DNA of 64,000 nt from Cytophagales bacterium (GTDB lineage Bacteria > Bacteroidota > Bacteroidia > Cytophagales > Cyclobacteriaceae), in the NCBI GenBank assembly GCA_020402945.1, contig JADBYQ010000013.1:1-64000 (forward strand), read 5' to 3'. Numbering within the stretch: position 1 is the stretch's first letter; each line of letters opens with the position of its first letter. The notes under the pieces were generated by a model that was not told the DNA's origin, ran no database searches, and saw only the letters and a program-made list of their open reading frames with translations. Position numbers and translations under genes: made by a program. Of the stretch, positions 17,741 through 20,941 are shown one piece after another.

Positions 17741-20700
17741 ATGCTACAAGACTACCTTAGAAAAATAGCCGATACCACCGCACAGGGCGATGCCCGCGAA
17801 GAAAGCTATTACTCAAACCTTTCTTCGTTTGTTGAAACTTTTGCTGAAAGCATTGGCCGTAAGAAAATTCAAATCACAACGCTGCCAAAGAAAACCGAAG
17901 CGGGTAACCCCGACTTTCGAATTTGGGACGGCCAACAAAGCATTGTAGGCTACATAGAAGCAAAAAAACCAGGCGAGAATTTAGATGTCATCGAAAACTC
18001 CGAACAGCTTAAACGCTACAGAGGAGTATTTCCTAATCTTATCTTAACCGATTTCTACGAATTCAGGCTTTTCAGAAATGGCCAGCTTATCGACAAAGTT
18101 TCCATTGGTCGGCCTTTCATTGCCAAGCGATTAAAAACAGTTCCTCCTGTTGAAAATGAAGAGAAGTTTCTTGCTCTCCTTAACAAATACTTTTCTTTTA
18201 CCCTACCCAAAGTTTTTACTGCCGAATCACTTGCAGCTGAACTGGCCAAGCGTACTCGCTTTTTACGCGATGAAGTTGTAACTATCGAACTGGAAGAAGA
18301 ACAAAAAGGCAAAGGGCCGCTCTATGGATTTTATACCGCCTTCAAAAGATATTTGATTGCTGATTTAAAGGAAGATGGCTTTGCCGACATCTACAGCCAA
18401 ACAATTACCTATGGTTTGTTTGCTGCACGTACCCGTGCGAATGGGAAATTCAATCGAAAATTAGCTTTTGAATTGATCCCTCAAACCATTGGCATTTTGC
18501 GCGATGTGTTTCAATTCATTTCGCTTGGCAAAAAATTGCCCATCGCAATGGAGGTGATTATCGATGACATTGCCGAAGTTTTGCAAGCGGCTGATGTAAG
18601 CAGCATTTTGCACGAGTACTATAGAAAAGGCAAGGGCGAAGACCCCATTGTTCACTTCTACGAAACATTTCTAAACATCTACGACCCTGCTACACGCGAG
18701 AAGCGCGGAGTCTATTATACGCCCGAGCCGGTAGTAAAATACATTGTTCGTGCCATCCACGACTTGTTGAAAACTCATTTTGATTTGCAAGATGGGCTGG
18801 CCAGCAAAGAAGTAACCTTGCTCGACCCCGCTGGCGGAACTCTTACTTTCCCAGCCGAAGCCATCAAACTGGCAGTGAAAGAGTTTACCGAAAAATATGG
18901 CGAAGGTGGCCTCAACCAGTTTTTTCAAAACCACATACTCAAACACTACTTTGCTTTTGAATTGATGATGGCACCTTATGCCATTGGGCATATTAAAATT
19001 GCCTTTTTGCTGGAAGAGCTGGGTTACAAAATGAAGGACGATGACCGCTTCAATTTGTTTCTTACCAATACGCTGGACATGGAAGATTTAGCCCAGACCG
19101 AAATACCCGGCTTGGAAAGTTTGAGTGACGAAAGCCATAAGGCAGGCAAGGTAAAACGACATGATCCAATTTTGGTGATTCTTGGCAACCCGCCCTATTC
19201 TGCCAACTCAGCCAACTACAATGAGTGGACTGAGAAATTATTAAAAGAAGACTTGGATGGAGCCACCTCTTATTACAAAGTTGATGGGCAACCATTAGGT
19301 GAACGCAATTCAAAGTTATTACAAGATGATTATGTGAAATTCCTCCGTTTCTCTCAATGGAAAATCCAGAAAGCAGGGCAGGGCATTGTGGGCATGATTA
19401 CCAATCATAGTTATTTGGATAATCCCACGTTTCGTGGAATGCGGCAAAGCTTAATGAACACCTTCAATGAGATTTACGTCATTGATTTGCACGGTAACAG
19501 TCAAAAAGGAGAAATTAATCCAGCTGGTGGTATAGATGAAAATGTTTTTGATATTAGGCAGGGAACAGCAATTGTTGTTTTAGTTAAGAGATTTAAATTA
19601 TCTCAAACTAAGGTTTTACACCAAGATATATTTGGTAAGCGTAGTGAGAAGTATGAATGGTTGGAAAAAGCCAAGTTTAAACCACAAAGCTATTCTCGGA
19701 TCAAGCCAATGAAACCTTGGTACATGCTTAAGCCTTTTGAGATTACCAAAATAAAATATTACGAAGGCTGGCCATCAATTGTTGATGTCTTTCCGATTAA
19801 TTCAACAGGAATAAAAACCCATCGGGATGACTTTGTAATCTCATTTAAAGCAAGTGAACTTGAGGGAAGGCTAAGGCAGTTTACAAATCTAAAATTTCAC
19901 GAGGATTTTCTATCCGAAGCATATAATTTAAAGAACAGCTCAACATGGAATATTTCTAAAACTCGAGACAAGATTCAGAGCGACAAACACATCTTTGAAA
20001 AATTCAATCAAATTAGTTTTCGCCCATTTGACATTAGAACGATTGTTTATTCAGACGAGTTGATTGATAGGCCTAGGAGAGACGTCATGAGCCATATGCT
20101 TAAGGAAAATTTGGGCATTGTTTGTTCGCGACAAGCTCAAGATGGGTTTAAACACATTTTTATTTCGGAATATTTAGCTGATGTAAATCTTACCGGAAAT
20201 GCAGGTCGGTACGGTAGCGGTAATCTCTTTCCCCTTTACCTTTATAAACCCACCGAGCCCAAACGCAAGACTCAAACCATGATGCTCTTCGAGCCAGAAG
20301 AGAGTTATGGCAAAGATGGCCGCAAGCCCAACATCAGCAAAGAGGTTTTAGAAAAGCTGGAGAAAGCTTACAAAAAGAAGTTTAACCCCTCACCCCTTCC
20401 CCTCTCCCGAGGGAGAGGGGCGTCCACAGGACGGGGTGAGGGATTTACACCCGAGAACACTCTCCATTATTGCTACGCCATCCTTTACAGCAACACCTAT
20501 CGTGAGAAGTATGCGGAGTTTTTAAAGATAGATTTCCCGCGCATACCATTTACATCGGATTTCAAATTGTTTTTGCAACTGGCAGAGTTAGGCGAGCAAC
20601 TTACCGAACTGCATTTGCTGAAAAGCAAAGCATTGAACAAACCGATAGCCAAATACAAAGGCAAAGGAGATGATCGCATAGAAAAACCCAAGTTTGATGA

Positions 20701-20941
20701 AGAAAGGCAAATGGTATTCATCAACGAGAAGAATTATTTTGAGGGTGTTTCCCCAGAAGTGTGGAACTACCACATAGGAGGCTACCAGGTGATGGAAAAA
20801 TACTTGAAAGACCGTAAAGGCCGCCTGATGGAAGACCCTGGTCACTATTGCAAAATGGCAACGGCCATTTCGGAGACTATTTTAGAACAGAAGAAAATTG
20901 ACAAACTGTTTGTAGACGTAGAGAAAAAAATAATTGACTAA
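17741..20941 (+). CDS. Type ISP-like/IIG restriction-modification enzyme (nuclease + N6-adenine methyltransferase)
   Basis: A single-chain enzyme that both modifies and cuts DNA, acting in defence. N-terminal PD-(D/E)xK nuclease: Asp58 in NPDFRIWD and Glu73-x-Lys75 in YIEAKKPG. A helical coupler follows, then the methyltransferase with SAM motif DPAGGTLTF near residue 362 and catalytic NPPY at 483-486. The remaining roughly 500 residues hold the target-recognition part. Full type ISP enzymes also carry a helicase and exceed 1500 residues; this one (1066) lacks it. Residues about 882-902 are a translated GC-rich palindrome that interrupts KKF/TPENTLHYCYAILYS. The gene starts after a TATCTTGC box and its stop overlaps the next ATG. 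Recognition sequence unknown. Confidence 0.88.
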   Translation: MLQDYLRKIADTTAQGDAREESYYSNLSSFVETFAESIGRKKIQITTLPKKTEAGNPDFRIWDGQQSIVGYIEAKKPGENLDVIENSEQLKRYRGVFPNLILTDFYEFRLFRNGQLIDKVSIGRPFIAKRLKTVPPVENEEKFLALLNKYFSFTLPKVFTAESLAAELAKRTRFLRDEVVTIELEEEQKGKGPLYGFYTAFKRYLIADLKEDGFADIYSQTITYGLFAARTRANGKFNRKLAFELIPQTIGILRDVFQFISLGKKLPIAMEVIIDDIAEVLQAADVSSILHEYYRKGKGEDPIVHFYETFLNIYDPATREKRGVYYTPEPVVKYIVRAIHDLLKTHFDLQDGLASKEVTLLDPAGGTLTFPAEAIKLAVKEFTEKYGEGGLNQFFQNHILKHYFAFELMMAPYAIGHIKIAFLLEELGYKMKDDDRFNLFLTNTLDMEDLAQTEIPGLESLSDESHKAGKVKRHDPILVILGNPPYSANSANYNEWTEKLLKEDLDGATSYYKVDGQPLGERNSKLLQDDYVKFLRFSQWKIQKAGQGIVGMITNHSYLDNPTFRGMRQSLMNTFNEIYVIDLHGNSQKGEINPAGGIDENVFDIRQGTAIVVLVKRFKLSQTKVLHQDIFGKRSEKYEWLEKAKFKPQSYSRIKPMKPWYMLKPFEITKIKYYEGWPSIVDVFPINSTGIKTHRDDFVISFKASELEGRLRQFTNLKFHEDFLSEAYNLKNSSTWNISKTRDKIQSDKHIFEKFNQISFRPFDIRTIVYSDELIDRPRRDVMSHMLKENLGIVCSRQAQDGFKHIFISEYLADVNLTGNAGRYGSGNLFPLYLYKPTEPKRKTQTMMLFEPEESYGKDGRKPNISKEVLEKLEKAYKKKFNPSPLPLSRGRGASTGRGEGFTPENTLHYCYAILYSNTYREKYAEFLKIDFPRIPFTSDFKLFLQLAELGEQLTELHLLKSKALNKPIAKYKGKGDDRIEKPKFDEERQMVFINEKNYFEGVSPEVWNYHIGGYQVMEKYLKDRKGRLMEDPGHYCKMATAISETILEQKKIDKLFVDVEKKIID
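20381..20447. repeat. 63-bp palindromic element inserted in frame in the restriction-modification gene, with TTTA duplication
   Basis: Inner stem CCCCTCTCCC/GGGAGAGGGG (20399-20408 with 20411-20420) and outer stem CCCTCACCCC/GGGGTGAGGG (20387-20396 with 20433-20442) are both perfect. TTTA occurs at 20381-20384 and 20444-20447, exactly 63 bases apart. Excising one unit restores KKFTPENTLHY with no frame change. The base composition (over 65% G+C) is unlike the host gene. Confidence 0.8.

Follow-up and report, generated by a model that had tools for sequence, protein, structure and literature searches.

A palindromic in-frame insert in a Type ISP restriction-modification gene of a Cytophagales bacterium as a likely solo derivative of a DUF559 nuclease element

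The window analysed here, a stretch of 64,000 nucleotides from contig JADBYQ010000013.1 of a Cytophagales bacterium (assembly GCA_020402945.1), carries a Type ISP restriction-modification gene on its forward strand (17741–20941; 1066 aa with the insert) into which a 63-bp palindrome has been inserted in frame. While the insertion itself is well established, its origin is a matter of interpretation: the insert is likely a solo derivative of an element carrying the DUF559 nuclease domain (PF04480), and we moderately favor the specific reading that it is a non-autonomous copy of the border repeat of such an element, residing in frame within host genes. Palindromes of the same type as this insert flank the Hut-linked DUF559 genes in its genus, and within the source genome its nearest copy follows one of these genes.

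Results

The palindromic insert and its host gene

The host gene is identified by Pfam matches to Type_ISP_C (E 9.7e-85) and N6_Mtase (E 9e-6), and the insert falls within the C-terminal specificity domain of the protein (Type_ISP_C, residues 682–1028; 19784–20824, forward strand). In agreement with a sequence-only reading made earlier of this DNA, which had suggested a small mobile palindrome compatible with coding sequence, comparable to Rickettsia palindromic elements (RPEs), the reading frame runs uninterrupted across the insert from 17741 to 20941, the insert is absent from close orthologs, and other copies exist. The ortholog of a genome of the same genus (G010, locus L011; 83% identical protein) shows an empty site with exactly 63 bases fewer; the same 21 residues are missing from the ortholog of G004 (L018), in which 63 DNA gap positions in total are scattered, and the 64% identical ortholog of G038 likewise lacks the peptide. 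Alignment against the empty orthologs L011 and L018 places the additional 63 bp, coding for 21 residues, at 20385–20447 of the forward strand, one of five equivalent placements, and the consensus of family copies delimits an element proper of about 58–60 bp, from 20385/20386 to 20443/20444. The 60-bp bin at 20381–20440 is the GC peak of the gene (0.667; runner-up 0.567), in line with the earlier description of the insert as far richer in GC than its host. The two outcomes named beforehand as damaging to that description, a peptide shared by homologs of unrelated hosts and a lack of other copies, were not seen, since close orthologs lack the insert and further copies are present. The case shares with RPEs a palindromic in-frame insert missing from orthologs, with translation presumed from the open frame.

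Palindromes as borders of DUF559 units

Palindromes like this one form the ends of a nuclease element carrying DUF559, a relationship that the sequence-only reading overlooked. Window-type palindromes flank DUF559 in two genomes (G030 and G027), and a DUF559 gene adjoins palindromes near HutF. When the left and right 200-bp flanks of DUF559 units were compared, the longest inverted match reached at least 11 bp in 73 of 141 units, against 2 of 131 control pairs, with a maximum of 51 bp in Hymenobacter daecheongensis (L400). A strong inverted repeat was present in the flanks of 136 of 166 DUF559 domains, as opposed to 128 of 3401 background windows, and two surveys placed motif density beside DUF559 at 81-fold and 57-fold over background. 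At the level of the order, 43 of 390 genomes had forward matches to the pattern CTCACCCC-N25-55-GGGGTGAG, 71 in all, and DUF559 was found in 38 of these 43 palindrome-positive genomes versus 185 of the 347 others (odds ratio 6.7, Fisher p 3.5e-6, kinship ignored). Other DUF559 lineages (L173, L205, L207–L209, L412) are flanked by different GC-rich palindromes, such as the CCCCCCTT-type at QueG, a hint that every nuclease type comes with a palindrome of its own.

In-frame units at LeuRS

The clearest instance is provided by leucyl-tRNA synthetase (LeuRS), a gene identified by Pfam and further evidence and searched for with a fragment. A match was obtained in 49 genomes; it was single in 47 and double in G023 and G207, the two of G207 lying in the same gene. 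Parsing was possible for 41 of the 49 loci, all within the genus, and yielded 22 with a linker of 15–23 residues, 2 with a solo palindrome peptide and 17 with a DUF559 unit. The source genome has a single LeuRS match and belongs to the last group; with no second copy detected by the fragment search, a presumably essential gene hosts the DUF559 unit. The site filled in the source genome is empty in G025, a closely related genome (94% identical across the query). The LeuRS linker, including DUF559, measures only 155–187 aa in total. The DUF559 units and the solo copies at LeuRS have ends of the CTCACCCC/GGGGTGAG type in common, in the manner of the terminal repeats that miniature inverted-repeat transposable elements (MITEs) share with longer elements, and one solo palindrome (L239) resembles a fusion of two outer halves, one from a left and one from a right border, a structure that suggests how solo copies may arise.

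The nuclease domain and its hosts

Genome searches were aimed at DUF559 and at host genes. Within the genus, 40 of 58 genomes contain DUF559, as do 223 of the 390 genomes of the order, many of the matches sitting in frames of about 1000 aa. The domain occurs within or fused to LeuRS, IleRS, HsdM, HsdR, HsdS, QueG, HutF and HutG, mostly accompanied by palindrome-coded peptides, and its hosts in other genomes include MetH, PurL, a CoA transferase, RecQ, a DNA helicase and a methylmalonyl-CoA mutase. Of these hosts, MetH, QueG, HsdR, HsdM, HsdS, RecQ, CoA transferase and methylmalonyl-CoA mutase were named from Pfam matches of one protein each; IleRS, PurL, HutF and HutG, together with UvrA and GcvP below, are what we take the proteins to be from their sequences. 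The four strong DUF559 matches of the source genome lie in LeuRS (contig C128, L171), in HsdR (C104, L174), fused to QueG (C47, L173) and beside HutF (C96), and in-frame units are also found in named isolates, among them Rhabdobacter roseus and Flavobacterium rivuli, whose LeuRS has an open frame of 1228 codons. In a Chloroflexota bin (L387), DUF559 is borne by a Type ISP gene, like the host gene of the window. At one place, the source-genome gene taken for IleRS (C47:108715-109626, L479) has a segment that is different from, and longer than, that of the close relative G025; the segment occurs also in G649, and its translation contains no palindrome-type peptide.

The DUF559 domain has the Vsr/homing-endonuclease (EDxHD) fold with conserved acidic and histidine residues. 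E15, D43, E54, D56 and H60 are invariant in all 24 aligned domains and presumably catalytic, and purifying selection acts on the nuclease frame. No intein/Hint domain was found when 17 proteins with DUF559 were scanned with Pfam (E 1e-3 or 1e-5). In a tree of 149 domains, built on few columns and with 71 of 146 inner branches unresolved, host labels are clustered (37 changes versus a shuffled mean of 87.9), and at least 15 host changes are counted among the 76 tree rows from eight named host genes. Sister domains L198 and L203 (support 99) occupy two different LeuRS positions. This pattern is that of a lineage long resident at one site that moves sometimes.

Spread and fold of the palindrome family

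With a cutoff of E 0.001, a DNA search matched the palindrome family in 35 of the 390 genomes of the bacterial family and in 4 of 84 genera; the copy numbers are lower bounds, because few candidates were scored per genome. Besides the window insert, the source genome contains one other full copy (C96; 81% identical) and the inner hairpin at four further places, two of which, on C128, border a DUF559 unit. Family copies occur in both orientations, frequently in or at genes recognized as GcvP, UvrA, HutF and HutG. The earlier expectation that palindromes of this kind are usually intergenic needs correction for this bacterial family, given that 11 of 25 listed copies lie within frames of 200 aa or more and have 40 aa or more on either side (10 of 24 after removal of one symmetric copy entered twice). 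In UvrA and GcvP the peptide is intact in some species and apparently worn in others, as expected of insertion followed by ordinary protein evolution.

A longer form of about 100 bp or more, in which the outer and inner stems are unchanged and the intervening stretches are longer, is found in the source genome (C2:12786-12805 and C59:720-739; L004 and L003) and in G099 (L132). In genus g23 (L047, L071 and L072), the palindrome lies within a bigger repeat whose flanks are common to several places, perhaps another mobile element. Many order-level copies in family f13 and others (L051–L090) are single long hairpins near stop codons and may be terminators.

The window palindrome is predicted to fold, as DNA, into a three-way junction, and its stems and TTTA flanks, re-read from the sequence, lie where the sequence-only reading had placed them. 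On the forward strand, the left arm of the outer stem (CCCTCACCCC, 20387–20396) pairs with the right arm (GGGGTGAGGG, 20433–20442) and encloses the inner hairpin CCCCTCTCCC-GA-GGGAGAGGGG (20399–20420; arms 20399–20408 and 20411–20420), which is supported by folding and by the family alignment; the junction is completed by a third hairpin that had not been listed before, CGTCC-ACA-GGACG (20421–20433). The predicted free energy of 20381–20447 is −23.2 kcal/mol, compared to −11.6 on average for shuffled sequences (z −5.09; none of 200 shuffles as low). Across 23 aligned family copies, the inner-hairpin stem is the most constant region, and the third hairpin has two pairs changed on both sides. 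The consensus structure comprises 22 pairs, 5 of them with changes on both sides, a count that is only rough because a few rows of the MAFFT alignment have the outer arm out of place.

Discussion

A solo palindrome derived from a nuclease-bearing unit would have as its full-length relative a segment, of about 450–550 bp at LeuRS, consisting of a hairpin border, one DUF559 (Vsr/EDxHD-fold) domain and a second hairpin border, the two borders often being mutually inverted and the whole lying in frame within host genes, with free-standing versions also present. In this model, the nuclease would cut an empty allele or another target, and repair of the break would insert there a copy of either the unit or a solo palindrome. 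Only in-frame insertions in tolerant linkers would survive, and the inserted peptide would persist as an unspliced linker that erodes later. Solo copies may come about when the nuclease segment that separates the hairpins is lost, or by mobilization in trans. That DUF559 drives the movement is suggested by architecture and homology. We give an even chance to the broader proposal of a new class of selfish element, in which a one-domain homing-type nuclease (DUF559) with inverted palindromic borders would colonize conserved genes in frame, be retained unspliced, shed tiny solo palindromes that spread through coding sequence, and account for the movement of one or more large classes of CCCTCTCC-type palindromes in bacteria. 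The combination amounts to RPE- or MITE-like behavior joined to an EDxHD-type nuclease, and there is a fair chance that the whole represents a new class; a text search found no description of such an element in the portions of the open-licence PMC literature that it covered.

Several observations weigh against this reading. Movement itself was seen in none of the data. Border orientation is not uniform, given direct flank matches of at least 11 bp in 45 of 141 units, and 68 of the 141 have no inverted flank match of that length; a strong inverted repeat is lacking in the vicinity of 30 of 166 DUF559 domains, and the CCCTCTC-type motif is absent within 180 bp of 27 of 86 domain matches. The genome-level association counts related genomes as independent and includes 5 of 43 palindrome-positive genomes without DUF559. 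The reversed order-level pattern also matches, at 16 forward matches in 12 genomes versus 71 in 43, and some pattern matches are, by eye, other things (G052). The IleRS unit of G001 is no simple insertion, and exact ends cannot be read at LeuRS, UvrA, GcvP and MetH because the borders fall in variable linkers. No consistent direct repeat was found around the 25 listed copies (best z 2.66 among 288 combinations of offset and length).

This last result bears on the TTTA pair of the window insert (20381–20384 and 20444–20447, by sequence and ortholog alignment), put forward earlier as a clean target duplication. At the window site the pair is compatible with a 4-bp duplication, the simulated chance of a slide of at least four bases without duplication being 0.015, and the flanks of the listed copies do not extend this to the family. 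Pairing continues for up to four bases past CCTCACCC (100, 72, 56 and 72%, versus 65, 39, 31 and 56% in mismatched pairs), and since no direct repeat stands out while outward complementarity continues, no target duplication is claimed for the family. It is nevertheless conceivable that TTTA is the target duplication of a transposon, and that the palindrome is a repetitive extragenic palindromic (REP)-like element moved by a tyrosine transposase of the IS200/IS605 type (RAYT), or a MITE derived from an ordinary transposon, with DUF559 merely a palindrome-tolerant passenger. The size and shape of the hairpins would suit REP or MITE biology, and REPs have been reported within uvrA and tRNA synthetase genes (PMC3733652, in the part consulted). 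Beyond the lack of a conserved duplication, this explanation has to contend with the resemblance between solo palindrome ends and DUF559-unit ends, with the density of the motif beside DUF559, and with the lack of a constant GTAG end tag, which is not at the ends of the window copy and, by eye, occurs among the 25 listed copies only beside the left end of L223; we regard it as rather unlikely.

The persistence of host-specific clades across many species and the purifying selection on the nuclease would also fit a domesticated accessory domain useful to its hosts, the palindromes then being recombination scars or terminators and the solo ones immobile, decayed remnants. The worn look of the UvrA and GcvP peptides, and the many order-level hairpins that by eye lie directly past stop codons, point in the same direction. 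We nonetheless find domestication unlikely: no single shared function is suggested, because the hosts are unrelated (tRNA ligases, MetH, HsdR, QueG, CoA transferase) and presence varies between species of one genus, and alignment reveals no DUF559 remnant at the insert site of the window gene or in the empty orthologs. Although the source genome is a draft of 136 contigs, an assembly error or chance expansion is highly improbable in view of the open frame in the window, the same palindrome type in frame in other, independent genomes, and the in-frame DUF559 units of named isolates such as F. rivuli and R. roseus.

Homing endonucleases usually enter conserved genes via introns or inteins. Here, a nuclease of a homing fold appears to reside in essential proteins without a splicing domain, its palindromic borders translated as linkers. 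If correct, derivation of solo palindromes from DUF559 units would supply a candidate mover for intragenic palindromes and a way for proteins to acquire new linkers and domains, in a system open to testing in culturable bacteria such as Hymenobacter or Flavobacterium.

Comparison with known systems draws on portions of four papers (PMC10969869, PMC3733652, PMC3943268, PMC1189080). RPEs are described there as dispersed palindromes that lie in frame within unrelated genes and can be translated (PMC10969869), and the window family is likewise palindromic, dispersed, in frame and open to translation; it differs in belonging to another phylum, the likeness being one of behavior, and in having a nuclease-bearing full-length form, of which the consulted portion of that paper makes no mention for RPEs. 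In REPs and REPtrons (RAYT), too, short hairpins flank a mobility-type gene and some copies are intragenic, in uvrA and tRNA synthetase genes among others, and CGTC REPs are said, in the portion consulted, to have no dedicated transposase (PMC3733652). The window family, in contrast, has as its partner a nuclease of the Vsr fold instead of a Y1 transposase; this partner often lies in frame within host genes, and the palindrome is longer and predicted to form a three-way junction. Unlike the EDxHD homing endonuclease I-Bth0305I, DUF559 lies outside introns and inteins and is translated within the host protein between palindromic borders, with homing and cutting putative here. For the Vsr mismatch endonuclease and Caulobacter VsrA, a repair role has been proposed, and the consulted portions describe neither palindromes nor gene insertion.
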